Source: Ruminococcus flavefaciens AE3010 (GTDB lineage Bacteria; Bacillota; Clostridia; Oscillospirales; Ruminococcaceae). From it: a stretch of DNA of 64,000 bases. Location: positions 4,107 through 68,106 of the forward strand of contig NZ_JAGT01000003.1 of assembly GCF_000526795.1 (NCBI RefSeq). Reading direction: 5' to 3'. Below are positions 21,534 through 53,527 of the stretch, in pieces (position 1 is the stretch's first letter; each line of letters starts with the position of its first letter). The position numbers were made by a program, and so were the translations under genes. Below the pieces are notes generated by a model. That model saw only the letters and a list, made by a program, of their open reading frames with translations, searched no databases and was not told the origin of the DNA.

Positions 21534-22209
21534 AACCATTCTCCTTTGCTGTCCGCACAGCGAGGTGCAGAAGAATTGCGAAATATTTTACAAAATTATT
21601 CCGATAACTTATTATATCATAAAAGCAAAGCGTTATGATATAATTGTCCGATTGTAGGGAGCAAATCTCTGATTTGCGCATCTGCAAGGACATTAAAATA
21701 AAATTATAATGAACGCCTGCATTCATTATAACATATGGTACAGAAAAAATCAATATTTTACCTAAAATTTATGAATTGTTCACTTTTGCGGCGCGTTGCG
21801 CCGAGTGAGTAGAAAGTAGAAAGTAGTAGGGGCGGGCGTCCCCGACCGCCCGTTTGGGTTACGTTGCAATGTGGGATAACCGTAAAAACGTGTAGGGGCG
21901 GCGTTTCGCCGCCCGTGTTGGAAATGCCCATTATGTTTGCGGGTGCGGAATTTGCGCGACGGGGATATTTGCGTTATGTTGCAGGTGTGGAAATATGCGG
22001 GCGGCGGGACGCCGCCCCTACAGGTACTAAATTACAATTTGTATACAATCCTGAATTTTTTACATTTTTTGGCAATTACTGATTGCAAAGCAAAATATAT
22101 ATTTATACCGTGTGTAAACTGCTGATTGCAATAGAAGTGCAGAAAAACTACTTTTCATTGTGAAATCTGCTGAATTATATGAAAAATTATGAATTTTTCA
22201 AAAAAGCCG
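21534..22209. other. Long intergenic region with palindromes and GC-rich repeat
   Basis: No gene is supported here; short readings across the GC-rich repeat are spurious. A 12-base-arm inverted repeat (21611-21622, 21633-21644) carries TATAAT on both strands. Further perfect repeats are GCAAATC-tct-GATTTGC (21661-21677) and TTATAATGAA/TTCATTATAA (21704-21713, 21722-21731). A MITE/REP-like element follows at 21826-22021. Confidence 0.6.
21826..22021. repeat. GC-rich REP/MITE-like element
   Basis: GTAGGGGCGG starts the element (21826) and recurs at 21892, and its complement CCGCCCCTAC ends at 22021, so the element has inverted termini and an internal third copy. GC content is much higher than in the surrounding AT-rich bases. 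This GTAGGGGCGG family is common as dispersed intergenic repeat in Ruminococcaceae genomes; I know that from general experience and cannot count copies here. Confidence 0.65.
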
Positions 22210-22238
22210 TTGACAAATAGTAGAAAATACGCTATAAT
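22210..22238 (+). promoter_or_regulatory. Consensus promoter of the first YAWF gene
   Basis: TTGACA (22210-22215), 17 bases, TATAAT (22233-22238): a perfect sigma-A consensus. The roughly 95-base leader contains a CCGAG-cctta-CTCGG type hairpin (about 22294-22309). Confidence 0.85.
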
Positions 22239-22337
22239 GTGATTGTAAACAAAAAGTATAAACCCTAAGGCAAAACAAAAGAGGCAAGAGGCAGCCGAGC
22301 CTTTACTCGGTAATTTATTATGAAAGGAAAATGACCT

Positions 22338-23384
22338 ATGATGAAAACTAATGCTAAAAGAAAGAACAGCGCGATGAAGAAGCTCGTTCCGGCTGCTGGA
22401 ATGCTTGCCCTTTCGGCTTCTATGCTCGCAACATCCACCTACGCGTGGTTCACAATGAACAAGACCGTTAACGTTACTGGAATGGAAGTTAGAACAAAGG
22501 TTGGCGACAACTTGCTTATCTCTCATGTTACAGGAAATGGTGTAGCAAAGAATGCAGAAAATACATTTATTACTACGGATAATACGTCAATCAAAGCATG
22601 GCTTCAGCCTGTATCTACGAACACTGCAGCAGCTAATAATTTCTGGTATACTTTAGATGCTAAGGCAGATGGCTCAAAGTTGACTGCAGCTACAAATTAT
22701 TTGGATTATGACAGTGTTGGATTAGGTGCTGCAACTGACGCTACCAACTTTGCAAATAAGTTTTCACAGGATTATGGTGTAACGAAGAGTGAAGTTACAG
22801 GTTTTGGTGCAACTACTTCTCCAAACAACGCAGCGGTTGGATATGTGGATTATACATTCCAGTTGAAAGCTGTTAATACAAACAGCAGTGCACAGGAAAT
22901 CCATCTGACACAGTTGGATCTTCTCTATGATGGAACAGAGGCGCCAGTTGAGAACGCTTTTAGAGTAGCAGTATTCTGTGAGCCTGAAGCAACAACACAT
23001 ACCGATGATTCTGATTATTTTGCAGCTGGCGGTACATCATTAAAGAAGATGTACAAGACTACATCTGCTACATACTTTACAGCTAAGTCGGGTGCGAGCG
23101 CAGCAGATGGAGTTACTGCTATCACAACTTTTGCAGATGAAACTTCTTCTGATAACAAGTTGGCTTCTGTACCTGGAGATACAACAGCTTATTACAATGT
23201 AGTTGTTAGACTTTGGATTGAAGGCGAAGATACTAGCTGTAATTCTACGACATTCGCTGAACTGACCAACAAGTGGAGCTTGAATCTGAGAGTTGATCTT
23301 GGAACTCCTACTTCTGGAGAGGTTAATGGTAACGCAATTGTTAATAACCTTACAATTGACCACGATAGCACAGATAATTCTTAA
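22338..23384 (+). CDS. Exported protein with SipW-type TYAWF signal (candidate fibre subunit)
   Basis: 348 residues with GAAAGGA before the ATG. A basic N-terminus (TNAKRKNSAMKK) leads into a hydrophobic stretch (about 17-34) ending in TSTYAWFTMNKTV (W37). That motif marks the SipW-dependent signal class (TasA/camelysin-like proteins in Firmicutes). The mature part is rich in Thr, Asn, Ala and Asp, predicted beta-strand, and the ending NNLTIDHDSTDNS has no anchor. Residues 38-60 align with the proteins at 23838 and 25168 (N-x-T...GM-x-V-x-T). The strongest promoter in the region precedes it and a hairpin follows, which suits a heavily produced subunit. Fibre formation is inference. Confidence 0.75.
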   Translation: MMKTNAKRKNSAMKKLVPAAGMLALSASMLATSTYAWFTMNKTVNVTGMEVRTKVGDNLLISHVTGNGVAKNAENTFITTDNTSIKAWLQPVSTNTAAANNFWYTLDAKADGSKLTAATNYLDYDSVGLGAATDATNFANKFSQDYGVTKSEVTGFGATTSPNNAAVGYVDYTFQLKAVNTNSSAQEIHLTQLDLLYDGTEAPVENAFRVAVFCEPEATTHTDDSDYFAAGGTSLKKMYKTTSATYFTAKSGASAADGVTAITTFADETSSDNKLASVPGDTTAYYNVVVRLWIEGEDTSCNSTTFAELTNKWSLNLRVDLGTPTSGEVNGNAIVNNLTIDHDSTDNS

Positions 23385-23469
23385 CTCTACAGGCGCACAT
23401 AAATCATAAAAATCCCCTCTCATTGTAATTCCTCCATAAACGGGTTTTATAGACCTATTCGATCAGCTT

Positions 23470-23498
23470 AAAGCCCGTCGGCAATAGTCGGCGGGTTT
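23470..23498 (+). terminator. Hairpin after the first YAWF gene
   Basis: AAAGCCCG and CGGGTTT pair around GTCGGCAATAGTCGG, followed by an A/T-rich stretch. It could end the transcript of the 348-aa protein. Confidence 0.5.
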
Positions 23499-23555
23499 GC
23501 ATAAAAAATTTAAGTCATCGTAGGTTCCTAAAGCCTCTATAACATGATGTCCCTC

Positions 23556-23590
23556 TCCGAGTTTTCAAGGAGGGGGACATTGTATTTGTG
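23556..23590. repeat. Second hairpin in the 22338-23838 interval
   Basis: ATGTCCC-t-CTCC pairs with GGAG-g-GGGACAT around a ten-base loop. It lies about 150 bases upstream of the next promoter; it may be a terminator or an RNA processing site. Confidence 0.4.
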
Positions 23591-23737
23591 GGATATGTTT
23601 TTCTATATGTCACCAAAATTTTATTGTTAGTATAGATGTGTCGGAATATACATTATGTAATTGATTTGTGCCTTGAAGCTCCCTTTTTTTGCACAAACAA
23701 TACAAATAGTAAAGGGTATTATTAGCAATTATGTCCA

Positions 23738-23766
23738 TTGAAAATGATATATGAAAATGATATAAT
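23738..23766 (+). promoter_or_regulatory. Promoter of the giant-protein operon
   Basis: TTGAAA (23738-23743), 17 bases, TATAAT (23761-23766). No terminator is seen between the following four genes, so this may drive more than 14 kb of transcript. Confidence 0.7.
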
Positions 23767-23837
23767 AAAGTAGAGATACTATGCGCTAATAGGCTAACTA
23801 TGCCCTTTAGCAGTTCGATAAAAAGGTGGTGATCACG

Positions 23838-25142
23838 GTGAGCGCTAAAGCTTTTGAAGCATTGTCAAAGTCCTCGGAGTCAGAGCTTTCTCCACAGACT
23901 GCACATAGTCAGGATAAGTCCGACAAAGAGAATAATGAAAAGATCGTCGCTGCACGCAAAAACCTCATACGCTTCGGCTCCCTCGCCGTCCTAGCCTTTG
24001 TTGTCTGGCTCTTTGCGACGATAGCTTGGTTTTCAAGCAACCGCACAACTACAGCTGGCGGTATGTCTGTTACTACTTCGGATATGCCTTTTGAGATCGC
24101 GGCAAAAGGCGATACTATCAGGAATTCTGATGTTTTCGATTCGCTCTGCACCGATTATGCGGAAGGCGCTGCCATGTATGTTACAGATAGCGAGTCAGTC
24201 ACACAAACCTATTACAAGACATCTTCGACCATAGACAAGATCAAACTAAGATTCGATCTTATTGAAGATGATCCTGAAACGCTTAACATTAACGAGGATA
24301 ATAATAAAAGCATAGGCCCCGGAAGCTGCGGAGTTCTGGAGCTGTATGTCATTCCCAAAAAAGACGGCTCAGTTTCCGCTAATATAGAAATGAATGTTGT
24401 TGGGTATGTAAATGTCGAAGTTGATGAAACAGTTGTTGATGAAGTAACAAACGAAGAAACAACTACTACTGTGAAAAAGCTCATGAAGGTTTCCGAGCTT
24501 ACTACTTTAAATAGTGGGCTCACACAAGAGGAAATTGACAATATCAAACAGGCGGAAAAATTCTTGCAGGGACACATAATGTTTTTCAACGAAGAAAACA
24601 CTGTTACAACTGCTGCTGTTACAGCGGTAAATGGTACAACAACTACTGCCACTGTTGCGTACAGCTACAGATCGCCCTGCATAAACAGAACGACTGTATA
24701 TAACGGAACAGATCTGACCGCGAATACGCCCTACTACAAGCCGATCTACTGGATGTGGCCTAATACTCTGGGTCAGATAGCTGTTAAGGATAATAGTGCA
24801 AAAAGGCGTGTGGGTACTCCTGTTGTTGAGGAGACAACTGTCATGCAGACTGAATCAGGTCCCACTGATAAGGGGCTTGTCCTGCAATACATGAAAGAAA
24901 ACAAGACTGATGTTTTCAAAAATCTTGAAAACGTTGCAGCTCTTACAGAGCAGCAAACAACAGGAAAGACTGATGAGGAGATATCTGCCTTGATCAATTC
25001 TACAATTGATACCCGTATAGATAATGCTTCGGATGAGGAAAACTTTAGAAAGCTGAGCACAGGATATAACTCAGCCGACTCTGACATCGGAACTATGATA
25101 GACTATTTTGTTATAGAAGTCACCGTAACAAGCGGAACGTGA
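23838..25142 (+). CDS. Exported protein with IAWF motif, second paralogue
   Basis: 434 residues if started at GTG 23838 (VSAKAFEAL) after AAGGTGG; GTG codons at 23826 and 23829 lie within that site. It has a long hydrophilic N-tail (about 45 residues, many Ser, Lys, Glu) before a single hydrophobic helix (about 46-63) ending FATIAWFSSNRTTTAGGM, which is the same [YI]-A-W-F-[ST]-x-N pattern as in the 348-aa protein. The rest has Thr-rich and acidic beta-type stretches (for example VTNEETTTTVKK). There is no other recognised domain. The long cytoplasmic tail suggests a membrane-tethered subunit, perhaps an assembly base. Confidence 0.7.
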   Translation: MSAKAFEALSKSSESELSPQTAHSQDKSDKENNEKIVAARKNLIRFGSLAVLAFVVWLFATIAWFSSNRTTTAGGMSVTTSDMPFEIAAKGDTIRNSDVFDSLCTDYAEGAAMYVTDSESVTQTYYKTSSTIDKIKLRFDLIEDDPETLNINEDNNKSIGPGSCGVLELYVIPKKDGSVSANIEMNVVGYVNVEVDETVVDEVTNEETTTTVKKLMKVSELTTLNSGLTQEEIDNIKQAEKFLQGHIMFFNEENTVTTAAVTAVNGTTTTATVAYSYRSPCINRTTVYNGTDLTANTPYYKPIYWMWPNTLGQIAVKDNSAKRRVGTPVVEETTVMQTESGPTDKGLVLQYMKENKTDVFKNLENVAALTEQQTTGKTDEEISALINSTIDTRIDNASDEENFRKLSTGYNSADSDIGTMIDYFVIEVTVTSGT

Positions 25143-25167
25143 GCCATTAAGGAAAGGGATGCCGTTT

Positions 25168-26109
25168 ATGAAGAAAATAAAAGATGTAATACGGGCGATC
25201 CCGTTAAAGCGAAAGATCGAAGCCGTTTCAGCTGTGGTATTGACTGTAGCTGTATTCGGAACAGTCCGTACTTACTCATGGTTCAGCAACCAGAAAAAGG
25301 CAGCGGAAATGTTCAAGATAAAATATCCTGATTCCCTGTATATCAATGCTGCACACCGTGAGGATCAGGTTAACTTCGATCTTGGTCAGATAAGTATGGA
25401 CGAATATTTGGTCAGCAATGGCGAATTTGTAATCGATAACGAAACGAATCAGCCTATCAAGGTCACGAACAAACGTTATATCTTTTCCATTTCCGGCACA
25501 AATACATATGAATACATCTTACAGCTTGCCCATACTAACAATAATATGTTCACATATACTATATATGAAGCAAAAGAGTATATGCATCCAAAGGGAATGA
25601 CTGCAACAGAACAAAACGGCTTTGACGCCGAACGAATCGTTCCTTCTTCAGCAATCGATGATAATATTATCACATTCAGCCCAAGTGCTGACAAACATAC
25701 TGAAAACAGCTTGCTGCTGTCTGCCGACACTTATATATCAAGCAAGAGCATAAATACGCTATATTATGTTAAGGACGATGATCCACTTGTCTTAGACTAC
25801 AAGAACCCCTCGGTTGCCACAGTTACAGACGGAGAAGGCGCAACGTCTGCTGTTACTACAACAGGAATGCTTGCAAAAAAAGATACAAACGATAATTATT
25901 ATCCATACGGTACAAATACAAATGTCGAGGAACATGCTGTACCATCATATAAACAAAAGAACATCCCACTGGATGAGAACACCGATATAGACAGTAACAA
26001 ACAATTCTGTAAATACTACATCCTTGAAGTAACATGGGGTGATCGTCCGAGCGAAACTAAAAACAAGGAAACCGATCTTGTTTACATTTCTGTAGAAAGA
26101 GTCAGGTAG
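25168..26109 (+). CDS. Exported protein with YSWF motif, third paralogue
   Basis: 313 residues; ATG 25168 (MKKIKDVIRAIPLK) is nine bases past an AAAGGG site, whereas the ATG at 25159 touches that site. A basic start and one hydrophobic stretch (about 20-35) end in VRTYSWFSNQKKAAEMF. Its alignment with the two upstream proteins is only around this motif and the YIN...A region after it. The mature portion is beta-rich and has no enzyme motif. It follows the previous gene after 25 bases and precedes the next by 32, so it is in the same operon. It is likely another minor subunit or chaperone of the surface structure. Confidence 0.7.
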   Translation: MKKIKDVIRAIPLKRKIEAVSAVVLTVAVFGTVRTYSWFSNQKKAAEMFKIKYPDSLYINAAHREDQVNFDLGQISMDEYLVSNGEFVIDNETNQPIKVTNKRYIFSISGTNTYEYILQLAHTNNNMFTYTIYEAKEYMHPKGMTATEQNGFDAERIVPSSAIDDNIITFSPSADKHTENSLLLSADTYISSKSINTLYYVKDDDPLVLDYKNPSVATVTDGEGATSAVTTTGMLAKKDTNDNYYPYGTNTNVEEHAVPSYKQKNIPLDENTDIDSNKQFCKYYILEVTWGDRPSETKNKETDLVYISVERVR

Positions 26110-26141
26110 TCCATATTCTTTACAGAAAGGAGCTGCTGTAA

Positions 26142-27293
26142 ATGAAAAAAGATTTATTAACTTTCTTAAAAGACCAGTGGCTCCGTGTATGGATAGCTTT
26201 TATGACATTGTCACTCTTTTCATTTTCTGTTTCTGCGGAATATCAGCCTCAGAGCAATATTATGAAACGCGTTGTCGTATCTGCGTCTGAGCCGATATAT
26301 AAGTTTTCATCTGACGTGCTTTCAAGTGGAAGCGTAAAAACTTATGTGCCGCAGTATATGGGGGCTTTTGGTGAAGATGCTGATCCGAACTATTATGAGG
26401 TACCGATTCACATTCGTAATTACAGCACGAAAGCCAGCGCTTCATGGTATGATGAAAAAATAGATTACAAAGTAAGTTTTTTATTCACGGACATTATGGG
26501 CAATGCGATCACATTATCCGAGGGCGACACAAGGACTGTTGAAATATATAAAAATAACGGCTCTGACCCTATAGCTATTCTTAGCGCAAGTACCTTGCAA
26601 GCTCTTAATATCTCTGAAGAGCTTGCAAGTGATTCGGCACATAATTCGCAGGATACGTACTATCTACGATTCAGCTCGGATTGGAATTTGACTGAGGATG
26701 AAAATATCTGCGTACAAATGAAAGCCGAGCCTGACAGAACCGGCGGCAAATATAACGATCTCAGAAACCTTGGAGCTGTTATAGGTCTGAAACAGTCAAA
26801 CGGAGATACCGACAGCGGTTGGCATGCATTTCTTGATGAAGAAAATGCTGTTAACGAAAGCAATCCTCCTTCTGTATTTGATGGCTACAACCTCATCGTC
26901 ACAGGTTCGGGTAAAGCAACTATAACAATCACATGGGATACAAGATATTTTGAACTAAATAAACACTTCTATGATAATTCAAGTGGGCATATAAACAGTT
27001 TTACATTTAATGCTACTTCCAATCCTGATACAGGAGAAGCAATAACACCTGCATTCAATGAAATTACTAAAACTGATACTACATTGGGTGAAGAGCCTGA
27101 TACTTATATACAGTCGACAATCACTATCAATGCCGATTCCGGTAGTTCTTTTACCAATCACAGGACACGTTATAACATTCAGGTGTACAACACCGGTTTA
27201 AGAACATATAATGATTTTGGTTTCTTTGCAGTAAATGGTGACTCTAATTTTAATACTGCAACAATAAAAGTCACCATTAATCAGGCTGAATAA
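26142..27293 (+). CDS. Exported beta-rich protein of the giant-protein operon
   Basis: 383 residues with AAAGGAG before the ATG. An N-terminal helix (about 13-33, WIAFMTLSLFSFSVSA) looks like an ordinary signal peptide with a cleavage site near SVSA-EY. No YAWF motif is present, unlike its three neighbours. The remainder is made of beta-strand type segments with many Asn, Ser and Thr (YNIQVYNTGLRTYNDFGFFA) and ends NQAE without anchor. I do not recognise a family. Position suggests a secreted partner of the giant protein. Confidence 0.65.
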   Translation: MKKDLLTFLKDQWLRVWIAFMTLSLFSFSVSAEYQPQSNIMKRVVVSASEPIYKFSSDVLSSGSVKTYVPQYMGAFGEDADPNYYEVPIHIRNYSTKASASWYDEKIDYKVSFLFTDIMGNAITLSEGDTRTVEIYKNNGSDPIAILSASTLQALNISEELASDSAHNSQDTYYLRFSSDWNLTEDENICVQMKAEPDRTGGKYNDLRNLGAVIGLKQSNGDTDSGWHAFLDEENAVNESNPPSVFDGYNLIVTGSGKATITITWDTRYFELNKHFYDNSSGHINSFTFNATSNPDTGEAITPAFNEITKTDTTLGEEPDTYIQSTITINADSGSSFTNHRTRYNIQVYNTGLRTYNDFGFFAVNGDSNFNTATIKVTINQAE

Positions 27294-27356
27294 TGATCGC
27301 CTCATTACACACATACGGCAGATATTAATCGTCAGACTTTTAGGAGTATGATGCAT

Positions 27357-30300
27357 ATGAATAAATACATAAAAAAAATAATTAAAAGTAAAACTTCAAA
27401 GCGAATCATAAGTGGCTTTACTGCTCTTGTAATATTGTCAGGTGTCACGCCGCTAAGTGAAATAAGCGACGAATTAAGTAAACTCAGTATAAGTCCCATT
27501 CATGTTTTTGCCGACGATACGCCTGAGTTCACACAGGATAGTAATCATGAAATAAGTATTTTTATTGATGAACTTGTACGTTACTCAGAAGACTGCGAAA
27601 AATTCCGCGATTACCATAAAAATGATAATCTAAGAATAACGGTCAACTCTCAAACCGAGGTATTGGCAAATGGCTTTAAAGGACTCGGCAGTGACAGCTG
27701 TCCGTTTGAGGGTTCAGTCTCCATAGAAGCCAACAGCAGTCTTGTGCTTTTCCTTGATGCACCTCTGTTTAACGCTGTTTATGATAACGTAAGCATAAAT
27801 TCAACTACTGAGAACGTACTCATCAAGAGAGGCTATGACAGCGGAAGAGATGAGAATTACAAAAAAACACCTCTTCTTGCAAAGAATGTCTATCATGGAA
27901 GCGGAACGGCTGCCACATGGCGAGTGACTTTGTCCGGAACCAGTGACGAATCCTTTGGTGGGCTTATCGGAACTATGGTGAAGGATAGTGAACACGGAAA
28001 CGCTGATCTTTCTGTCGAGCTGACAATGCCATATTCGGCAACAGATGTTCCTATAAAAGGAACTGGCAATGTTGGCTTTATCTGTGGAACAATGATGGAG
28101 GATACAACGCTGAATTGCTCGCTGACTTGTCTGACGGAAAGTGAAGAAAGCACGTCGATTCGCAAAGTCGGTAATATTGAGACGGACAGCGGTAATGTCG
28201 GCGGACTGATCGGTGAGCTTCAGCACGGGGCAACTCTTAATTATACAGGTTTTGTTCCTCAGACTTCCGGTGCGGAAATAAAAACAGATGCAAATGGTTA
28301 CGCCGGCGGACTCGTGGGCAAGAATCTGGACGGAACCATGAATCTATATTCCGCTACGGATACCCTTTATAGTTCAAGCAATAAGTATACTATCAGTCAG
28401 CATATGACAGGCTCAAGCGGAGCAGGCGGACTCTATGGCTACTTTGAGCCTCAGAGTGCAGCCTCTGCTTCAATATCTCCAAGCACATATACAATAGACT
28501 GCCAGGTAAATGGCAGTGGCAATACAGGCGGACTTATCGGTGAGCTGGTAAGTGCAAATAATGTTTCGCTTAGCGGAACGGATAAAATAACTTCATCGCA
28601 TGCGTCAGGAACAGCTTCAACATACGGAGGTCTTATAGGACAATATATGACCTCGAATAATTCAAGCATTTCTGTCACTTCAATGGAGGTTGATACTTCA
28701 TGCGGCGGTACAGCCGCTATTTACGGCGGAGCGATAGGCTGTATAGTTGATTCCAAGACCATTACAGAGAATGATGTCACGACCACGGTAGATACTAACA
28801 TACACGCAGCGTTTACTTCATTTACTGTAACATCAGCAAATGCAGGTACGCTGACATATGGCGGACTTGTCGCATCTGCGAAAAAAGCATACATTGATGT
28901 TACAGGCACATCCTCGGCTAAAACCAAGATCACAGCAACCGGCGGCTTCAAGGGCGGTGGACTGGTCGGCGATCTCGGCGACGGCGTTCTTGTTATGGAC
29001 GGTCATATTGATCTGTCAGCCGCAACACCAACAGCTGACGGACATTCTGTCGGCAAGGTAGTCGGTGTGCGTGATAATGCACTGGTTATAAAAAAAGAAT
29101 CTGCTTCACTTGATCTGCCATCAACAGCAGTTGATAATATCGGTTCATGGGGCGATGTTATAGCCTTTGATGATCTGTTCAATATCACAAGTGGAACAAG
29201 TATAGAAATCAAGACACCCTCTGATCCAACAGATCACTATAAGAAGATAACAAATGAGGCGGACTACGCAAAAACTGCGCTCTGCTTCCAGATAGACGCA
29301 AGCCAGAACCCTTATGTCAGCTTTGCGGACACAACATATAACTACGCAACGATAGCTGCACAGAATATCTCAATAGTTCTTCCTTCAGGTACAACAGTTC
29401 TTAACCTTTCGGGCAAGGGCTTCGGAGGACTTACAAGAGACAACGACATAGGTACAAGCGGAGAGAAGTGTACATATTCGGGTATATTCAACGGTAATAG
29501 CAATACATTGAATTTAGGTATCGGTCCTGTTTACCGTCATTCCTATAATGGACTTTTTGCGATAGCAAACAATTCGACCATACAGGATGTGACTTTTGGC
29601 GGCACTATTAATGTCAATGCACTTGCTGATATGTATGTCGGTGCAGCTGCTGCAAAGGCAACATGCAGCTTTACAGTCAAGAACGTTACTGTTAATTCGC
29701 ATTTTACTCATGCTTGCAGCAGCGAAAGCAAGCTTGTGCTCGGTGGAATAGTCGGTGAATCTGACGGTGCAGGTACATTGACCATCGGTGACAGCACAGG
29801 TTCAGCAGGCAATGTTACTGTAAATGCAAATATCACTTCTTCCGGAAGCGGTTCTGCAGGCGACGTTTACCTTGGCGGCGTTATAGGCAGGATAACTCAT
29901 TCTGCAAACGAAGCCAAAACGTGGGAATTCAACAAAGTTAATGTCACAGGTACTATCAAGAACAGCGCTGCTCAGACGTATAACCGTGTAGGCGGTCTTG
30001 TAGCGTTTATTTCAAATACGACTTCGGGTGATGCAAGCAGCGCAAATGTGCGTTCCTTAAATCTTAAAACTGTCAATATCAAAGGTCTCTCAATAGAGGT
30101 AAATGCTTCTGAAAACGGAGCAGTGGGAGGCTTGCTTGGTTATGCCTGGAGAAATGTGAATGTTGACTTTAACGGTGTCACCGTTGATGTTAACGGAAGC
30201 ACACCTTGCTCGATAAAGAATACAGGTTCAGAAGCAGGCATTGATTTTGCAGGTCTTGTATATAACGGTACAGGTTACTGGAAGGCTGATACTGCAAATG

Positions 30301-33300
30301 ATATAAAGATAGATTCGTTTGCCCTCAGCTCAGATAATGCCGCTTCATTCGGCATGATAGTCAACAAGGGCTGGTATGCCGATACAGATAAGACCATGAG
30401 TGACGGTTCGGCTTCGGCAATTTATCTTGAACTTGGTAATACAGGTGCTTATTCGCTGACAACAGGAGCGACCTTCAAGCAGAAAACCAATACAAGTGCT
30501 GATATGTCTATCCCCACATTTGACGAGCTTGTGGCATATACTGCTTATTACACAGGCAGCGGCGCTTCAAAGGTCGGCTACAAGGATAACGAAGATGACC
30601 TCTACATCATCAAGAATGGTCAGGGTATCGTTTCCATAAAGACCTCCATAACCAATGGTCTTACAATGGACAGTACTTCTGCAAGCGGTTCGTATACGCC
30701 TAAAACATCTTTCGGACAGCAGATGAATCCGTATTCGAGATATTATTATAACCTCTCGGATTTCAGAACATTACCTGCAAATGACGAGCAGAAGCTCATG
30801 TCGTGGGGCGCACGCTGGTATGCACATTCAAGCATTAAGAAACTGTTTACGGATAACAGCTGGGGAAGTACTGTTCCAGTTCCTTCAACAGCTCCTACGC
30901 AAGCAGAAATTGATGCCGGAAAAGTGTCTACAGTCAGAGATTATGACATGGTGGGCTACAGCTGGTATCCTCTCAATATAGACAATGCTTCTGTCACTAT
31001 AACAGGAACGTTCAAGCTCTATAACAAGGAGTTTGAGGACAGTGAGATAAAAGCACATAGAATCGTTGATCCAGACACAAACGATGTTACTGCTGATTAT
31101 TCTCGTTCTTCTCTCTACAAAAGTGGGCCATCTCAGCATTTCCTTATGCAGAGTGCGCTTTTCTATGATGTCAACCATAATCTGACTGTTAATAATGTAA
31201 CTCTTCAGGGTAGTATCCCGCAGATCAATACTATAAGAACAGTCGGCACAGGTGAGGATGCACATTCTGTTGGCGATAAATACTCGGGTGTTCTCATTCT
31301 GGATAAAGTCAAGGGTACAGGTGTTACCGAGAGTACAAAATCTGTAGTTAAGCTCAGCAACGTAACACTTGACGGCATTTATGTGCATAATTTCAGTATA
31401 TTTAATGATAATGATAATACTTACGCAGATGATTATGCACCCCTGCTTATTAACAAGACCGGCAGTTATTCAACTCTGACGGTGAATGGTATCAGCAATA
31501 ATGAGTACCCTTCATCGTTCCCGCGTGGTAGATGTGCAACTTATACAGATTCAAGCTCCAATACAGTATATTGCCCGAAGGTAGCAACAAGCCTTATAGG
31601 CAATGTCGGAGACACAAATGACAGCAACGTCAATATCGAGTTTTCTAATATTACTCTTGACGGCAGAAGCAATAATCTTGACCTCACAGCACTTGATACT
31701 GCTTATAAAACGAGAATATCTCTCTTCACAAAAGCAACTCTGCTGAACAGACTTTCTTTCAGCTCAGGTAAGGGTAGCTATTCATACCAGTGGGCTGAGG
31801 ACTGGACTTTCTCTCAGCATCATGTTACATACGGTAAGGAAGTTGGATACACAGTTGAAAATTCACCTGTTCCGAATCAGTATCCAGATATGGAACGCTG
31901 CTATGCTGACTATAATACCGCTGAACGTACTTTTAAATATACCAATCCAACAACATCTGATGGAACAGATAATTATGCACAAAATTTCATAGACAATTAT
32001 CTTCCGTATGTTGCTGTTGCATATAATCCTGAAAACAGGTATTATCAGCTTGAAGTTAACCATGCAACATCAAAATTCGGCGGCTGCGGTACATATAACG
32101 ATCCATATACTATAACATCCGGAGGCGATTTTGTTACTATTTCAAAGATTCTTGCAGGCAACTGTGAGGATGCTGAAATTTATCTTCCGATGAAATCAGC
32201 GAATCAGGCTGATCTTTCATTAACATGGCACGGATCAAGTGGCTGTGGAAAATATTATTATAAATCGGGTGATGACTCACATAGTGAAGGTTTTTATTTA
32301 GACGATGATTACAGCAAAGAATGCAAAGCCGTTGACGATGTCCGCACATATGTTGCAGGAGCATATTTCAAGCTCGCACCTAAGAACAATGCAGACGGAA
32401 GCACATCAAGAGAAATTACGATAAGTAGCGGAAGCGGATTTACTGGCTTGGGCAATACAGATGATGCGAAGGCTCAGTTCAGAGGCGTTATCGTAGGCAA
32501 TAAAAATCAGACTGTTGTAAATGAAACAGACTATCCTCTTATCGCAATAAGCAACGGCAGCGTTGTAAAGGACTTTGAAATAATCGTTGGTTCGGAAACA
32601 GTTGATAATGATATTACTCTTTCGCAGGGTAGCGCTAAGAGTTTCAGTGCTACTGGTGAAAATAGAGGACAAAGCTATGGCACGGTTATGGGTATCGTTC
32701 TCGGCGGCGATAACATCATCGATAACGTACCTGTGCAGTTCCGTAATACTACTATTATTCTTTCAGGAACTCACGCACAGCTCATACCAGTCGGCGGATA
32801 TGTTGGCGTTGTTGAAAAAGGCGGCGTGATCTTCCGTGGAATGGAAGGAAAGGACGGTATATCAGGACTTCCTGCTACAGGTGAGGTTGTGCAATACAAT
32901 AACGGTACTTCAATATCAGAGACAACTCTTATCAAAAAGCCATTATATGAGAATGAATATGATCTTACCGAGATTACAGGCTATGCAGACAATATGCGCT
33001 GGCTCTATGTCAATCCGATAATCGGCAGAGTCATTAACGGTTATGTTGTTACCGAGGCAAGTGCATACCGCCCGTTTGAGGACGGAACGCGTACTTACGG
33101 CGACGGTACTGTTGAATACTGGCAAACCAGCGGAGCTCCTGTTTCTAAGACTAAGGCTGAACTTGATGCTATGACCGATGAGCAGAAAGACTTGCTCAAA
33201 AACAGTGCTGTCGGCGTGACAATGCGCAATGGCAATAAGCATTATTCTATTGCGGATATCAGTTCGTCAGAGGCAAAATTGAATACGAAAGGATCAAATT

Positions 33301-36300
33301 CTGTCATAGAAGTCCCGAACGGTCAGGCATTTTTCATTATGTCTCTTGCTGTAAATAGCGGTATGTCACAAAAACAACTTGGCTATAATCAGGCATATCA
33401 GGTTTCACGCATAGCGGATTATAGCAATGTTGAAAAGAACTTGTCAGCTGCTCAAAACTCTGTACCTGATTATAATAATAAAGCTAAAAATGATATACTT
33501 AATTCATCAAATGAAGCCGCAAATAGAGGTTACCTGTGGCAGAGCTATACTTTAAATAACACTCGGATTACAAATGCAGATAAATCATTGAAGCTAACAA
33601 CACAAGATGGAAAATACTATCTCCCCGACGGTTATAAAGGAATTGGTAATATATTCCAAAATTCTGATTATTATCGTATAAAGCTGACCTCTTTTAATGG
33701 TAACGGTGCAACTATTTCGCAGAATACTTATTATTACTTTTATGATAGCTTAGAAACAAAATATCCTCCGTATGAGAATTTGCAAAGCGGACTTGGATTG
33801 ATTAATTATTATACCGCTGGCAGCAATGGCACATTCAGAGATTTTTATTTGAACGGAAATGTAAAGGCTGATTTAATAAACACATCAGACGGAAATCCTA
33901 TTCTGACTAAGACTGCGAAGGATTTGGACACCGGAGGTACAAATGCTGCAAATTCAAAATATTTAAGTGTTGGAATGTTGTGCGGCACAATGGCTAAAGG
34001 TCTTACAGTTAAAAATGTTTCTTTGCAGAATGTTGATGTTTTAGGACTTAGAGCAACAGGAGGATTGATAGGATATATTCCTGATCAGACTTTGACATAT
34101 GAAATTGAAAGTACCGTAGCTGCAACCGCTTATAATTCAAACGAAATTAAAGTTCATGGACGAGCAAGCACAGGCGGTTTGGTTGGTAAAATTCGTGCGG
34201 GTTATGCAAAAGTTGATATGAACAATCATACATTTAATCTTTCCGAAGTTGTCTGCGAATGTCAAGACAGAGGTGGAGATTATTGGGATTATGGTGTTGG
34301 CGGTTTTGTTGGTATGATGAGAGCAGGACAAAGTTCTTTAGATACAACTGCAAACTCGTTTAAAAACATTATCATTGGAACAGAAGAAAAAGCACAGAAT
34401 GTTAAATGCGAGAAAGCTGAGATTTTCACCGCTGGTGTCGTAGGCATAATGAATAAGTGCAAAGGTATAACTATTGAAAAGTGTAAATTTTATAATTTGT
34501 CGGTAAAAGCTAAGTTTGCGGCTGCAGGACTGGTTGCATTTCCAACTACCTATACCCCTGCGGTAGTTACCAATACTCATTTGTATAGTCCTTTAGGCTC
34601 TACAATAGAGAGCACTACAGATTATGCCGGCGGATTGATCGGAAGTTCTGACCCTCGACGGGACATTAGCAACGGAAGCCAAAATTTTACATTCGATGGT
34701 TGTTCGGTGGACAATTATACTATTTCCGGCAAAAAAGGAGCAGGAGGTGTTATTGGTTTCAGAGGAGCTTATGAAGATAGCATTAAACTTTGTGTTAACA
34801 ATAGCAGTGTTACGAACTGTACAATAAAAAGTGACGCTGCAGCGGGGGGATTGATCGGTGAGATGATCTCTCCTGTGGTTGGCTATAATTTGTTGGCACA
34901 GAATATTGCTATAGACGGATATTCAAATGATGCCCCCACATATGCAGGCTACATATGTGGCTCTATTACAGATAACAGTGCAAATGTAACATATAATACA
35001 ACTGGAAATTATAAACCGGGTAGTTATATGAAAACCAATCAAGAAACAGGAAGAAACCCATTTATTAAGATAGCCGGTTTCAGCCGACAGGCAGATGATC
35101 AGAGCACCATGAAAGCGGATTTAGTTGGTGCTTGTAACTACGGAACAGGCTATGGCACCGGCGGCTATGTCATCTTCGCTGATTACAACGGCACAACAAG
35201 CAACCAAACCGCTTCAAGCGTAAATCTATCAACAGGCTATGAGGGCACTGCTCCTTATGTTACAGTCAATCCAAAAATGCTCATCAACAATGATAACTCG
35301 TCGAATCCGCTGTTCTTTACAGGCGACGGCGTAAGTGCGGTCAATTATGCAGATTCAGCATTCAAGGCAATTACTGACGCCAGAACGGCTGGTACTGATC
35401 CAAAGGCTTATACCTTCTATAAGAACGGTAACAATACTGATATCTCAGAAGCCGATATCGCAGCTATAATGGAGAACTATTCGACCTCATACATTGCATA
35501 CAGCAACCGTGCAGGCGTAAGAGGTTTCCCGCTGCTTGTCATTGACGATACCGATGCGGACAAAACAACAGCTCTTATCAACAATTATATCAATGTCCTT
35601 GCCAATACGAACTACAACTACGCTGATACAAGTAGTCCCGCCAAGGAAATATATGAAGTTAAATTCAAAAGGTATACGTTCAACGGAACTGATTTTACCT
35701 TTGACAGCTCTGCTCCTGCAAGTATGTCCACAGCAGGAAGCAAATTCAAAATGGATCCGGATCACGTTGATACATCATCAACTCCGAAGTTCACACTTAT
35801 GGACGTTCAGTTCAAGGATCCGTCCTCAACAGGCAATGTTGCATATCATCTGTATATCCCACTGTATGTCAAGCAGCTGTTAAGATTCGAGTTCAACGCC
35901 ACAGTTGCTTCGGATACAAACTATTATCCAAGTGCTTATACTGACGGAAGAACATGGGAATTTGAAAACTATGGAAACCCCGTTACAATAATGCTGGAAT
36001 ATAAGTATGTCCGAACTCCTTCCCAATGGGCCGAGGCTATCAATAGTGGCGACAGCGTTCTTAATAATTACTACAAGTCATTGATCCTTTCAAATCTGAT
36101 TACGGCAAGTGCATATCCCACTGACTATAATACTACTGCACTTCCGCCCGACAGCAGATTGGTCCTTGTAGACGCAAACAATAACGACAAAGCGTATTAC
36201 CTCGACAGTGTACCTGCTACGGGAGAAATAAACTTTTATAGTTTTACTTCTGACGGCACCTCTGGTGGCACACATTATACGCCTGCACCATTCCAAAATC

Positions 36301-38189
36301 TTATGAGTATAAGAGTGGAAGAATGTGATGGTGGAACGCTTGTTGCTACAGCGGAAAACACTGCTACAAATGCAATTGTAAAATATAACAATACATATTA
36401 TCGCAGTGCTGTTGACGGCGATACTGGTCAGAGATACCGCGCATTTGCAGAGTTAGCTGTTCAGGAAGATAATGTTAACGGAACTCTTGTGGTAGCTACA
36501 ACGGAAGAAAAAATTCAAGCAACTGTATATAATAATGGGATCTACTATCGTTCTGCAACCGATGAAGAATTAGCAGATGCAGAAACAAAAAAGTATAAGA
36601 CAGCGGATAGAGTGCAAACAGAAAGATATTATCTGAGTATTTTTACAAAGGAAAGCGATAGCACAAACATTTACCATTCAACTATTCAGTCCGCCGAGGC
36701 TTTTGCAGAGAAATCCGAGACTGTAGTTAATAATGTTCCTGAATGGAACGTTGAAAAATGGAGACCTAATAACATACATGGTTCCAATACTTCGATACAT
36801 CTGTTTTATGGTAATCTGTTTGAAAACTATGTAGATATGGACGTATCATCTTCCAATGACTCAACGTTGATGAATGATGAAAACAATTACCTCAAAGTTG
36901 AATTGTTCGCAAATGTAAGATTAAGTGAAAGTGCAAAAAACAAAAACTTAGCGTCAAATCTATATAATCGAACCGAAGGTCAAGCAGGTGTTTATCAAAC
37001 ATTCCTTCTAAGATATGATATGAAGGACGAAACTGCAAGCAGCTTTGGCGTTGTCAAAAAAGCTGGTGTTATGGTTGTAGACAATGTCGGTGATAACGGA
37101 TATTATATTCAACCGGGTTCAATCACTAAAGTCGAAGAAGGAAATACCATTATCGACAAAACTCGGTTTAACAGTACATCAAAGGTTTCTGCTTCAACAT
37201 ATATCACCAGCTCATCAAGCTACATTGAGTTAAGAAATAATGTTAACATCGTAAAAATGCTTGGTAATGAAGCTAATAACTATTCTGTCGCCTTTAAGGT
37301 GAAAGCTGACCTGTTGTATGCTGCAAATGCACTGAATTATCAGTTCCCGTCAGGAAACGGTGATGGAACAACCGGTTCAAAGGTAATCGGATATTCAAAT
37401 ATATCCGGTTCACCGGAAAATGCAGCATACAGTACGTTCACCCAAAAGGTCGAAGATACTTCTCGTTACTACACCAAGAATGAGACTAAGGCAAAGCTCG
37501 GTTATGAGGTTATCGAAACTCCTGATCCCGATGCGCTGCTTGATCCTGATTCGCCTAATCCGTTCATCGGACCATATGGTGGAGATTACAGTTATCTCGG
37601 TATAAATGCTTACGAGATCAAAGACGGTCAAAACAGGCAATATGTTGATAGCTATGCTACATATGACCTTAGCAGTATTTATCCGAGCGGCAGTAATCAG
37701 GCGACCGACTATATAAGACTTACATTGAGTCTTTCTAAGAAAGGAAGCTATCTATCACCGACAGTTGATTCTGAACATGCCGGCGGAACTGCATTGACAA
37801 TAGCTAACTACATTGAAAACATAACTTTATTGGGAGCTGACGGCAGCGACGAGGATACCGATGATGATGAGCTTTACAGCAACGGCTCACTGGCATCGGG
37901 AATCACGCTTGGCAGCGACAGCGACAGCACAATGCTGGTTCTTATTGTTCCTAAAAACAGACTGAAAAAGAATCAGGAGGAAACTGAATACTATTTCCCG
38001 ATAAGCTATAAAGTCAAAACGGGATCAGCTGCTAATTTCGATAATAGTCACAGCGATATGACTTATTCCAACTACATGGTATCGCTTACAGCAGAGGAAT
38101 GCAGTGCAAGCGGTGAGACGATTACCACGACATTTGCAACAGACTATCTCATATACACCAATGCAATACTGGATCCGACAATAAAATAA
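27357..38189 (+). CDS. Giant secreted protein (about 3,610 aa) with GLUG-like repeats
   Basis: ATG 27357 (MNKYIKKIIKSKTSKR) is taken as the start since AGGAG is ten bases upstream; ATGs at 27348 and 27351 are nearer. The signal peptide is long, with a hydrophobic part at about 18-33 and likely cut at VFA-DD. Glycine motifs of GG[LVFA][IV]G type (GGLIGELQHG, GGLVGK, GGLIGQ, LGGIVGES, VGGLLGYAW, ATGGLIGYI, VGGFVGMM, GAGGVIGFRG) recur about 20 times in residues 250-950 and 2230-2510; they resemble GLUG motifs of surface adhesins and predict beta-solenoid blades. The last 1,000 residues look beta-rich with YYRSA repeats. There is no LPXTG, SLH, choline-binding or dockerin at the C-terminus (ends ILDPTIK). 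It is the last gene of the operon. Confidence 0.85.
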   Translation: MNKYIKKIIKSKTSKRIISGFTALVILSGVTPLSEISDELSKLSISPIHVFADDTPEFTQDSNHEISIFIDELVRYSEDCEKFRDYHKNDNLRITVNSQTEVLANGFKGLGSDSCPFEGSVSIEANSSLVLFLDAPLFNAVYDNVSINSTTENVLIKRGYDSGRDENYKKTPLLAKNVYHGSGTAATWRVTLSGTSDESFGGLIGTMVKDSEHGNADLSVELTMPYSATDVPIKGTGNVGFICGTMMEDTTLNCSLTCLTESEESTSIRKVGNIETDSGNVGGLIGELQHGATLNYTGFVPQTSGAEIKTDANGYAGGLVGKNLDGTMNLYSATDTLYSSSNKYTISQHMTGSSGAGGLYGYFEPQSAASASISPSTYTIDCQVNGSGNTGGLIGELVSANNVSLSGTDKITSSHASGTASTYGGLIGQYMTSNNSSISVTSMEVDTSCGGTAAIYGGAIGCIVDSKTITENDVTTTVDTNIHAAFTSFTVTSANAGTLTYGGLVASAKKAYIDVTGTSSAKTKITATGGFKGGGLVGDLGDGVLVMDGHIDLSAATPTADGHSVGKVVGVRDNALVIKKESASLDLPSTAVDNIGSWGDVIAFDDLFNITSGTSIEIKTPSDPTDHYKKITNEADYAKTALCFQIDASQNPYVSFADTTYNYATIAAQNISIVLPSGTTVLNLSGKGFGGLTRDNDIGTSGEKCTYSGIFNGNSNTLNLGIGPVYRHSYNGLFAIANNSTIQDVTFGGTINVNALADMYVGAAAAKATCSFTVKNVTVNSHFTHACSSESKLVLGGIVGESDGAGTLTIGDSTGSAGNVTVNANITSSGSGSAGDVYLGGVIGRITHSANEAKTWEFNKVNVTGTIKNSAAQTYNRVGGLVAFISNTTSGDASSANVRSLNLKTVNIKGLSIEVNASENGAVGGLLGYAWRNVNVDFNGVTVDVNGSTPCSIKNTGSEAGIDFAGLVYNGTGYWKADTANDIKIDSFALSSDNAASFGMIVNKGWYADTDKTMSDGSASAIYLELGNTGAYSLTTGATFKQKTNTSADMSIPTFDELVAYTAYYTGSGASKVGYKDNEDDLYIIKNGQGIVSIKTSITNGLTMDSTSASGSYTPKTSFGQQMNPYSRYYYNLSDFRTLPANDEQKLMSWGARWYAHSSIKKLFTDNSWGSTVPVPSTAPTQAEIDAGKVSTVRDYDMVGYSWYPLNIDNASVTITGTFKLYNKEFEDSEIKAHRIVDPDTNDVTADYSRSSLYKSGPSQHFLMQSALFYDVNHNLTVNNVTLQGSIPQINTIRTVGTGEDAHSVGDKYSGVLILDKVKGTGVTESTKSVVKLSNVTLDGIYVHNFSIFNDNDNTYADDYAPLLINKTGSYSTLTVNGISNNEYPSSFPRGRCATYTDSSSNTVYCPKVATSLIGNVGDTNDSNVNIEFSNITLDGRSNNLDLTALDTAYKTRISLFTKATLLNRLSFSSGKGSYSYQWAEDWTFSQHHVTYGKEVGYTVENSPVPNQYPDMERCYADYNTAERTFKYTNPTTSDGTDNYAQNFIDNYLPYVAVAYNPENRYYQLEVNHATSKFGGCGTYNDPYTITSGGDFVTISKILAGNCEDAEIYLPMKSANQADLSLTWHGSSGCGKYYYKSGDDSHSEGFYLDDDYSKECKAVDDVRTYVAGAYFKLAPKNNADGSTSREITISSGSGFTGLGNTDDAKAQFRGVIVGNKNQTVVNETDYPLIAISNGSVVKDFEIIVGSETVDNDITLSQGSAKSFSATGENRGQSYGTVMGIVLGGDNIIDNVPVQFRNTTIILSGTHAQLIPVGGYVGVVEKGGVIFRGMEGKDGISGLPATGEVVQYNNGTSISETTLIKKPLYENEYDLTEITGYADNMRWLYVNPIIGRVINGYVVTEASAYRPFEDGTRTYGDGTVEYWQTSGAPVSKTKAELDAMTDEQKDLLKNSAVGVTMRNGNKHYSIADISSSEAKLNTKGSNSVIEVPNGQAFFIMSLAVNSGMSQKQLGYNQAYQVSRIADYSNVEKNLSAAQNSVPDYNNKAKNDILNSSNEAANRGYLWQSYTLNNTRITNADKSLKLTTQDGKYYLPDGYKGIGNIFQNSDYYRIKLTSFNGNGATISQNTYYYFYDSLETKYPPYENLQSGLGLINYYTAGSNGTFRDFYLNGNVKADLINTSDGNPILTKTAKDLDTGGTNAANSKYLSVGMLCGTMAKGLTVKNVSLQNVDVLGLRATGGLIGYIPDQTLTYEIESTVAATAYNSNEIKVHGRASTGGLVGKIRAGYAKVDMNNHTFNLSEVVCECQDRGGDYWDYGVGGFVGMMRAGQSSLDTTANSFKNIIIGTEEKAQNVKCEKAEIFTAGVVGIMNKCKGITIEKCKFYNLSVKAKFAAAGLVAFPTTYTPAVVTNTHLYSPLGSTIESTTDYAGGLIGSSDPRRDISNGSQNFTFDGCSVDNYTISGKKGAGGVIGFRGAYEDSIKLCVNNSSVTNCTIKSDAAAGGLIGEMISPVVGYNLLAQNIAIDGYSNDAPTYAGYICGSITDNSANVTYNTTGNYKPGSYMKTNQETGRNPFIKIAGFSRQADDQSTMKADLVGACNYGTGYGTGGYVIFADYNGTTSNQTASSVNLSTGYEGTAPYVTVNPKMLINNDNSSNPLFFTGDGVSAVNYADSAFKAITDARTAGTDPKAYTFYKNGNNTDISEADIAAIMENYSTSYIAYSNRAGVRGFPLLVIDDTDADKTTALINNYINVLANTNYNYADTSSPAKEIYEVKFKRYTFNGTDFTFDSSAPASMSTAGSKFKMDPDHVDTSSTPKFTLMDVQFKDPSSTGNVAYHLYIPLYVKQLLRFEFNATVASDTNYYPSAYTDGRTWEFENYGNPVTIMLEYKYVRTPSQWAEAINSGDSVLNNYYKSLILSNLITASAYPTDYNTTALPPDSRLVLVDANNNDKAYYLDSVPATGEINFYSFTSDGTSGGTHYTPAPFQNLMSIRVEECDGGTLVATAENTATNAIVKYNNTYYRSAVDGDTGQRYRAFAELAVQEDNVNGTLVVATTEEKIQATVYNNGIYYRSATDEELADAETKKYKTADRVQTERYYLSIFTKESDSTNIYHSTIQSAEAFAEKSETVVNNVPEWNVEKWRPNNIHGSNTSIHLFYGNLFENYVDMDVSSSNDSTLMNDENNYLKVELFANVRLSESAKNKNLASNLYNRTEGQAGVYQTFLLRYDMKDETASSFGVVKKAGVMVVDNVGDNGYYIQPGSITKVEEGNTIIDKTRFNSTSKVSASTYITSSSSYIELRNNVNIVKMLGNEANNYSVAFKVKADLLYAANALNYQFPSGNGDGTTGSKVIGYSNISGSPENAAYSTFTQKVEDTSRYYTKNETKAKLGYEVIETPDPDALLDPDSPNPFIGPYGGDYSYLGINAYEIKDGQNRQYVDSYATYDLSSIYPSGSNQATDYIRLTLSLSKKGSYLSPTVDSEHAGGTALTIANYIENITLLGADGSDEDTDDDELYSNGSLASGITLGSDSDSTMLVLIVPKNRLKKNQEETEYYFPISYKVKTGSAANFDNSHSDMTYSNYMVSLTAEECSASGETITTTFATDYLIYTNAILDPTIK

Positions 38190-38198
38190 CCAAATCCA

Positions 38199-38225
38199 AG
38201 AGTCGGGAGTTTATCTCCCGACTCT
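38199..38225 (+). terminator. Terminator of the giant-protein operon
   Basis: AGAGTCGGGAG (38199-38209), loop TTTAT, CTCCCGACTCT (38215-38225), then TTTTC. Confidence 0.9.
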
Positions 38226-42372: not shown

Positions 42373-42498
42373 AACACGAAAAATACGAATCGTAACTAAT
42401 TATCTATATTATACTCTTGGTTATCATTTCGCTTTGGGATTAGATCATAAGAAGAATCGTTGTCTGGATTTTTAAATACTTTTTGGAGGGAATATTTT

Positions 42499-43701: not shown

Positions 43702-44396
43702 TACTGCGCCGCTGGGAAGATCTCCCTTCATTTATGAAAACGGAAGAGGTAAGACCGTATTGGGAGATATTATGGAAAAAGCGCAGACATCTTGCTGTAA
43801 AGAGAGCATTTGACATCGTTACTGCGTCGGTGCTCCTTATGATCGCTGCTGTCCCCATGATAGTGATAGCAGTGATGATAAAGCTTGATTCAAAAGGCCC
43901 TGTGCTTTACCGCCAGGAAAGAGTAACTACATACGGAAAGCGGTTCCGTATACATAAATTCCGCACTATGGTACAGAATGCCGATCGGGTCGGATCTGCC
44001 GTTACTGTCAGCAATGACAGCAGGATCACCCGCGTCGGTTCTTTGCTGCGCGGATTAAGACTTGATGAACTGCCTCAGCTCATAGATGTGCTTCAGGGAA
44101 CTATGAGCTTTGTCGGCACACGTCCCGAAGCGTCAAAGTACGTGAAAAGATACCGTCCCGAATTCTTTGCCACACTGCTTATGCCCGCAGGCATCACCAG
44201 TGAGGCTTCTATCAGGTATAAGGACGAGTACAAGCTTTTAAGCGCTTCCGAGGATGTTGATGATACCTACATAGAGCAGGTGCTTCCGGGAAAAATGGTA
44301 TGGAATCTTAATTCCATCGAGCGTTTTTCATTTTTCCGTGAGCTTCTGACCATGGTCAGAACAGTTCTTGCTGTATTGGGAAAAGAATACGATTGA
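43698..44396 (+). CDS. Initiating sugar-1-phosphate transferase (PglC/WcaJ-like)
   Basis: 232 residues; TTG at 43698 with AAAGGA six bases upstream overlaps the previous stop (TTGA), a sign of coupling. One membrane helix (about 42-66) is followed by the catalytic block: LYRQERVTTYGKRFRIHKFRTM, shown in pieces, LLRGLRLDELPQLIDVLQG and GTRPEASKYVKRY. Such enzymes move a phosphosugar to undecaprenyl phosphate at the inner leaflet, the first step of lipid-linked glycan synthesis. The short size and single helix resemble PglC rather than the five-helix WbaP. Confidence 0.9.
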   Translation: MILRRWEDLPSFMKTEEVRPYWEILWKKRRHLAVKRAFDIVTASVLLMIAAVPMIVIAVMIKLDSKGPVLYRQERVTTYGKRFRIHKFRTMVQNADRVGSAVTVSNDSRITRVGSLLRGLRLDELPQLIDVLQGTMSFVGTRPEASKYVKRYRPEFFATLLMPAGITSEASIRYKDEYKLLSASEDVDDTYIEQVLPGKMVWNLNSIERFSFFRELLTMVRTVLAVLGKEYD

Positions 44397-44406
44397 GGAG
44401 TTTAAT

Positions 44407-45012: not shown

Positions 45013-45013
45013 T

Positions 45014-46138: not shown

Positions 46139-46150
46139 GGGATTGTTGTT

Positions 46151-50901: not shown

Positions 50902-50913
50902 TAATTTGTAATT

Positions 50914-53489: not shown

Positions 53490-53527
53490 CCCAACGTCCA
53501 TAATAAATTTGAGAAAGGCTGAAACCG

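Follow-up and report, generated by a model that had tools for sequence, protein, structure and literature searches.

Five exported-protein genes of Ruminococcus flavefaciens AE3010 as the candidate cargo of a McrBC-like SipW operon

What might the products of five neighbouring genes, one of them coding for a giant of 3,610 residues, build outside the cell, and which machinery would process and assemble them? The genes lie in the window, by which we mean the whole stretch of 64,000 nucleotides analysed here (positions 4107-68106 of contig C3, which has 68,106 bases, in a genome of 3.7 Mb on three contigs). A preliminary description had claimed three proteins with YAWF-type signals, a secreted partner and the giant, and all five open reading frames are present. 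They are given below with the sites and the divergent gene to which we refer.

19854-21539, minus strand: EAL-domain protein, divergent from YAWF1, with EALAR and DDFG motifs (Pfam EAL E 1.2e-60)
22210-22238, plus strand: predicted YAWF1 promoter, TTGACA-17-TATAAT, sigma-70 type 12/12, consensus match only
22338-23384, plus strand: YAWF1, 348 aa, putative main subunit; presumed cleavage between STYA and WFTMNK; mature part from about 22446
23547-23580, plus strand: 12-bp hairpin 3' of YAWF1, a possible end of the YAWF1 transcript, read by eye; its loop is beyond the limit of the terminator scan
23738-23766, plus strand: promoter-like site upstream of the YAWF2-giant operon, TTGAAA-17-TATAAT, 11/12, with TG before the second hexamer, consensus match only
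23838-25142, plus strand: YAWF2, GTG start (longest ORF from 23826); SipW-like signal IAWF, then an N-terminal segment in common with YAWF1
25168-26109, plus strand: YAWF3 (longest ORF from 25159); SipW-like signal YSWF; mature part mostly beta by prediction
26142-27293, plus strand: partner, the fourth protein with a SipW-like signal (A-E-Y), then a KRVV motif
27357-38189, plus strand: giant, 3,610 aa (longest ORF 3,613 aa from 27348); ordinary-looking signal by eye

YAWF1 is a separate unit, and YAWF2, YAWF3, the partner and the giant are closely spaced 3' of the second promoter-like site (23738). That YAWF1 has the strongest promoter, as had been claimed, agrees with its 12/12 sigma-70 match against 11/12 for YAWF2, although the region is rich in promoter-like sites (30 against 17.3 ± 4.0 in shuffles). 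The hairpin assigned to YAWF1 is also there as a 12-bp stem when read by eye, though the terminator scan listed none 3' of this gene; a small hairpin lies in the YAWF1 leader (22294-22311).

All five window proteins have export-type N-termini. Searched against Pfam and NCBIfam they gave no family match over cut-off; neither Gram-positive anchors nor the pilin domains of sortase-assembled pili were found in them (both databases, E<=1), and no nuclease or toxin family was matched. For the giant itself Pfam gave no hit at E<=1 over the whole length, and the sole hit at E<=10 among four pieces of it and one relative was a weak one to an unrelated DUF. The GLUG repeats formerly ascribed to it are not supported, as no Pfam GLUG domain appeared in the whole giant (E<=1), the four pieces or the relative (E<=10); it does have 16 GGL[IV]G-like motifs. 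Nor was an anchor found by Pfam in the giant, whole or in pieces. Its signal, read by eye, ends between VFA and DD. The eleven giants that were aligned, window copy included, range from 3,340 to 3,935 aa and all keep a C-terminal YTxA (11/11). With residues 1400-2000 as the query, 1,322 proteins match (E<=0.001); the 120 of them that were listed contain no Pfam domain.

The signals of the smaller proteins point to a particular kind of peptidase. The hydrophobic stretch ends in YAWFT in YAWF1, IAWFS in YAWF2 and YSWFS in YAWF3, which is the [Y/I]-[A/S]-W-F-[S/T] pattern first described, and it is kept among homologues: a W followed by F or L closes the stretch in 12/12 homologues of YAWF1, 38/39 of YAWF2 and 38/38 of YAWF3 (88/89 in total, L replacing F in 4-8%). 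Judged from these alignments, the conserved W[FL] end is no chance feature. The partner had been taken as merely secreted and does have an export-type N-terminus, but this needs correcting in that it has a SipW-like signal as well (SAEY in the window copy, mostly YAAY or YAEY types in relatives). In YAWF1-3 and the partner alike the stretch is ended by A or S and then two residues, the second aromatic, so that predicted cleavage fits a signal peptidase of SipW type and not an ordinary one. SipW substrates have an aromatic residue at P2' of the cleavage site according to the part of PMC10269814 available to us, and the presumed sites in the window (cleavage predicted from sequence) read WF, WF, WF and EY. 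Four of the five window proteins (YAWF1, YAWF2, YAWF3 and the partner) thus look like SipW substrates by their signals.

The three YAWF proteins were also said to align immediately after the motif, and this is true of YAWF1 and YAWF2 (profile score 21.8 against -7.1 ± 5.1 for column shuffles, 0/2000 of which reach it) but not of YAWF3, whose alignment is no better than chance (696/2000 shuffles reach the score). The common segment, WFTMNKxVxxxGMxV, occupies the first 16 or so residues past the presumed cleavage point; similarity ends after about 24 residues, the bodies differ, and between the mature proteins YAWF1, YAWF2 and YAWF3 as wholes no homology was detectable. In the structural model of YAWF1 (mean pLDDT 86.8) residues 1-9 of the presumed mature protein fall below 50 though several of them are among the most conserved. 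The YAWF1 profile found no chain in the PDB at E<=1, those of TasA included, and the window proteins have no match to the BsaA model TIGR04090 at E<=1; neither a TasA nor a pilin fold could be established by fold searches.

The four genes of the cargo block, YAWF2-YAWF3-partner-giant, stay together in relatives. YAWF3 was found in 12/99 relatives, own genome included, and the neighbourhoods of the positive relatives repeat the four genes. A profile of the partner found 13/99 genomes and 30 loci in named genomes (six of the 30 on contigs from the YAWF3 search), and by their own profiles YAWF2, YAWF3 and the partner keep their order in 30/30 loci and the giant comes next in 29/30, which bears out the expected co-occurrence of the giant with YAWF proteins. 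The giant is not reached in R. albus 8 (L088), where the contig end comes first; at some loci it is clipped by the analysed stretch, and in L074 it is in two frames. Among the genomes with these loci are R. flavefaciens ATCC 19208, R. albus 8, Eubacterium ruminantium ATCC 17233 and many rumen MAGs, and identity to the window copies of YAWF2, YAWF3 and the partner is only 20-31%, indicating fast divergence. A match to the YAWF1 profile occurs in 13/13 partner-positive genomes (in G087 over the signal region only). Within the genus the partner is patchy (11/60 genomes, own included), which counts against the explanation that we favour below.

No SipW-type peptidase is encoded in the window, as had been noted, and the homologue that might exist elsewhere in the genome exists several times over: eight matches to TIGR02228 (E<=1), four of them over cut-off, are all on contig C1 and none on C3. 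Two of the four SipW genes are in a second locus, locus B (L015:4284-17820; G000:C1 about 1504283-1517819, i.e. about 1.504-1.518 Mb of C1), which is of a known kind: it codes for a class B sortase-like protein, for a protein of 2,630 aa that carries a Fibro_Slime domain, and for three matches to TIGR04090, of which one passes the cut-off and two fall short of it. The NCBI SipW-signal model TIGR04088 matches a BsaA-like protein of locus B and none of the window proteins (E<=1).

The other two SipW genes belong to operon A (C1:1.127-1.134 Mb), whose six genes code for a degenerate EAL protein, p237, SipW, p523, p984 and p150. Its SipW matches have E values of 7.1e-30 and 5.3e-29 to TIGR02228, and one of them is fused to a DUF2357 protein. 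The EAL family of this operon keeps neither catalytic motif (0/16), and p150 is a small protein with one hydrophobic stretch. p237 is a membrane protein related to mature YAWF1 (hhalign probability 96.4, E 1.3e-9) and is without the WF segment; the hydrophobic stretch of our own copy ends in SYFYD. We take it that p237 keeps this membrane stretch, though with such an end it might be cleaved and would then be no anchor. p523 is a membrane-bound McrB-like NxD GTPase with a strong hydrophobic segment near residue 60 and, by eye, a heptad-like stretch after it. PDB profile matches to its AAA+ domain at E<=0.01 are all McrB (best 9.1e-6), and the NxD motif is followed by D in 13/13 rows of the p523 alignment and reads GTANNDD or GTINNDD in 20/20 frames (NxD in 14/14 of the wider set). 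p984 has DUF2357 (PF09823, E 9.6e-7, 28.7 bits against a cut-off of 23.3), a long charged stretch that takes all 10 PDB profile matches at E<=1, and the second SipW; no nuclease domain was found in it. DUF2357 is the domain by which McrC drives McrB in the account given by the part of PMC11090510 at hand. The DUF2357 protein and SipW are separate frames in L077, L098, L121, L075, L080 and G057 and are fused in the other whole Ruminococcus operons. A second class of p523 relatives (frames of 871-1135 aa, 26-35% identity, mainly over the AAA+ part) occurs in G037:C30, G038, G050, G051 and other genomes.

From its gene content the machine is probably a CoCoPALM-type McrBC-SipW operon. A 2024 eLife paper introduces the CoCoPALM clade in a single paragraph and defers it, and that portion of the paper describes no cargo; in the literature searched, the name occurred in that paper and its preprint, and no account was found of what CoCoPALM systems assemble. 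The features of the clade include an FtsB-like transmembrane plus coiled-coil part fused to the GTPase and a coiled coil in the McrC homologue, to which in operon A the hydrophobic segment and heptad-like stretch of p523 and the charged stretch of p984 may correspond. Such a gene family raises the thought that the locus serves phage defence or delivers a secreted effector, which would be the giant: McrB and McrC relatives are mostly restriction systems (PMC11090510, in the part seen), the PADLOC candidate-defence model PDC-M26A matches p523 (L013:14314-15885, E 5.5e-39), and the distribution in the genus (11/60) is patchy. We nevertheless consider this very improbable, since all five proteins begin with export-type N-termini and match no nuclease or toxin family.

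Operon A and the cargo block are on different contigs in our own genome (G000) and in G010, G062 and G087, but they go together. Strong p523 matches (E<1e-100) are present in 12/13 partner-positive and 10/86 partner-negative genomes (Fisher p 8e-9 with kinship ignored; the genomes compared are related, so that the counts are not independent), and in 8 of the 12 genomes that have both (G008, G009, G015, G019, G037, G040, G049 and G057) the two are on one contig within 20 kb. A single gene run, EAL-p237-SipW-p523-DUF2357-SipW-p150-YAWF2-YAWF3-partner-giant, is found in L077, L098 and L121, and in L075 (E. ruminantium) and in L080 the cargo is preceded by the latter half of operon A. Many relatives thus show operon A and the cargo block in physical linkage. 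At 26 of the 30 named loci there is no machine gene within the flanks (<=10 kb a side, some limited by contig ends), three of these (L072, L084 and L091) having the machine further out on the same contig, and G007 has a cargo locus in a genome with no p523 match at all; these exceptions, the placing on different contigs and the ten partner-negative genomes with the machine weigh against the favoured explanation. In G049 a second YAWF2-like frame (L103:5083-6408), which has a match to a portion of the giant profile as well, lies directly 5' of operon A and is possibly the relic of a second cargo block.

The association was also followed in a wider sample of the class (243 genomes, 12 of them, own included, with p523 at E<=1e-60), in which 13 stretches were taken around all 14 other p523 hits and compared with 13 control stretches. 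A protein with the strict signal [STN][YF][AT]W[FLY] is present in 9/13 p523 stretches and 1/13 controls, the strict motif having been adopted after a loose one gave 11/13 against 7/13; the lone positive control itself contains p237, YAWF1 and SipW matches, and among stretches with both p523 and a SipW-domain protein the strict signal is found in 9/11. Relatives of YAWF1 and p237 are often inside or adjoining these operons and the giant block is present in 1/13 (L121), so that YAWF1 and p237 look general and YAWF2-YAWF3-partner-giant look like a special cargo.

These counts bear on the plainest reading of the locus, a matrix-fibre locus of the TasA or BsaA type in which any SipW cleaves the YAWF proteins, these assemble by themselves, and the McrBC-like genes are unrelated neighbours, for instance for phage defence. 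Neither the tapA-sipW-tasA operon of B. subtilis (PMC9674648) nor the sipW-bsaABCRSD operon of C. perfringens (PMC7395162) contains such GTPases as described in the parts of those papers available to us, locus B with its SipW, BsaA and sortase B-like proteins could supply a peptidase, and the PADLOC match to p523 would suit a defence gene. Set against this are the position of the GTPase and DUF2357 genes between, or fused to, SipW genes, the strong co-occurrence of p523 with the cargo, the recurrence of p523 beside YAWF-type proteins in other families (9/13 stretches) and the lack of a detected nuclease domain in the McrC-like protein, and we regard this reading as unlikely.

We favour instead, with a probability of roughly two in three, the explanation that the window holds the structural cargo of a CoCoPALM/SipW surface system of rumen-type Clostridia, in which the McrBC-like pair would gate the SipW peptidases and YAWF1 would form a donor-strand fibre with the giant; the product may be a fibre like that of TasA with a giant adhesin on it. 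The fibre or giant-adhesin assembly first suggested is in this way partly supported, by the conserved block and the SipW-GTPase operon linked to it; the fold searches speak neither for nor against it. Starting from the machinery and its linkage, both observed, we infer the order of assembly, the donor strand, the tip and the role of the GTPase as follows. Tethered to the membrane, p523 and the DUF2357 protein would together act as a McrBC-like motor or switch, governing both SipW peptidases from inside. Cleaved YAWF1 would then polymerize, each subunit giving its conserved N-terminal segment to a groove of the next; in TasA, according to the accessible portion of PMC9674648, residues 28-38 serve as the donor strand linking one subunit to the next, and TapA is similar to TasA in this part. 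The fibre would start on p237 as its candidate base, a protein whose body is like that of YAWF1 but which has no WF segment, with YAWF1 as the shaft and YAWF2, which has the same N-terminal segment on another body, capping or adapting it; this arrangement is proposed because of the relation of YAWF1 to p237, the segment common to YAWF1 and YAWF2 and the parallel with the TasA donor strand. YAWF2, YAWF3 and the partner would retain the giant, and the degenerate EAL protein could make the system responsive to c-di-GMP. In this full form, a tethered motor gating two SipW peptidases and a donor-strand fibre raised on a membrane-held relative with the giant adhesin at its tip, the scheme is tentative and its chances are somewhat below even.

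A different architecture for the same machine and cargo is that the giant is retained by a base near the membrane or wall, made up of YAWF2, YAWF3 and the partner, and that YAWF1 makes a separate fibre. As this shares the machine-and-cargo part of the favoured explanation, the odds of the two overlap; we see it as a real possibility that is nonetheless doubtful. It would suit a giant in which no anchor was found and which is preceded by the same three genes in 29/30 loci, as well as a YAWF1 gene with a promoter match and hairpin of its own whose relatives adjoin the cargo in some loci only and accompany the machine in places where no giant was detected. The presence of a YAWF1-profile match in 13/13 partner-positive genomes speaks for a closer tie, and the N-terminal segment common to YAWF1 and YAWF2 suggests that the two are joined.

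The surroundings of the cargo in the window offer further observations. The EAL-domain protein at 19854 is placed divergently beside YAWF1 in L039, L041 and L045 also, and from this neighbourhood it may belong to the system. Together with operon A's degenerate EAL protein, an HD-domain (HD_5) protein (58985-61390) and a GAF-GGDEF protein (61719-63110, both on the minus strand), it hints at control by c-di-GMP. The protein of 996 aa encoded at 16642-19632 (minus strand) has a Cthe_2159 carbohydrate-binding domain and a CotH kinase domain. On the 3' side of the giant (38546-40624) is a leucine-rich-repeat protein with a type I dockerin, for which we saw by eye no counterpart in the relatives' neighbourhoods, and 42460-55069 is an apparent surface polysaccharide cluster (DegT aminotransferases, a sugar transferase, a glycosyltransferase, a polysaccharide export protein and a Wzz/AAA_31 protein).

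CoCoPALM was named from gene neighbourhood, and the candidate cargo described here comprises subunits that can be recognised, a possible base and a giant protein of the cell surface. If the full scheme of motor, donor-strand fibre and tip is true, Gram-positive bacteria would have a further, new means of making surface fibres, and whether a restriction-family AAA+ machine can drive work outside the membrane would become a testable question; the system may bear on the hold of rumen bacteria on plant fibre or on each other. The match of PDC-M26A to p523 indicates that defence-system callers may flag surface-assembly operons of this kind.

Among known systems, operon A is like CoCoPALM, so far as the paragraph on that clade goes, in having an McrB-like GTPase with an NxD motif and a membrane part at its N-terminus, a DUF2357 protein and partners of the signal-peptidase family, and it goes beyond that description in the YAWF and giant cargo, p237, the degenerate EAL protein and a DUF2357-SipW fusion. 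With McrBC restriction it shares a DUF2357, as in McrC, and an AAA+ domain whose nearest solved structure is McrB, but it has NxD rather than NxxD, a membrane segment and a fused-in SipW, and a nuclease domain was not found. To TasA-TapA-SipW, as the part of the literature at hand presents it, the likeness is in SipW, the aromatic P2' residues of the substrates, the conserved mature N-terminus and a second subunit with the same segment; the differences are the two SipW domains, the McrBC-like GTPase pair, the membrane relative of the subunit and the giant, and further that no TasA chain matched the YAWF1 profile and that the Bacillus operon is described there with tapA, sipW and tasA only. The BsaA/SipW pellicle system, from the part of its description available, and locus B resemble the cargo in the SipW-dependent export of a polymerizing subunit and, in locus B, in a large protein (2,630 aa), whereas locus B differs from the window in matching the BsaA model TIGR04090 and in its sortase B-like protein. 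The system stands at the meeting of two known kinds, to which the DUF2357-SipW fusion, p237, the degenerate EAL protein and the cargo are the additions made here.
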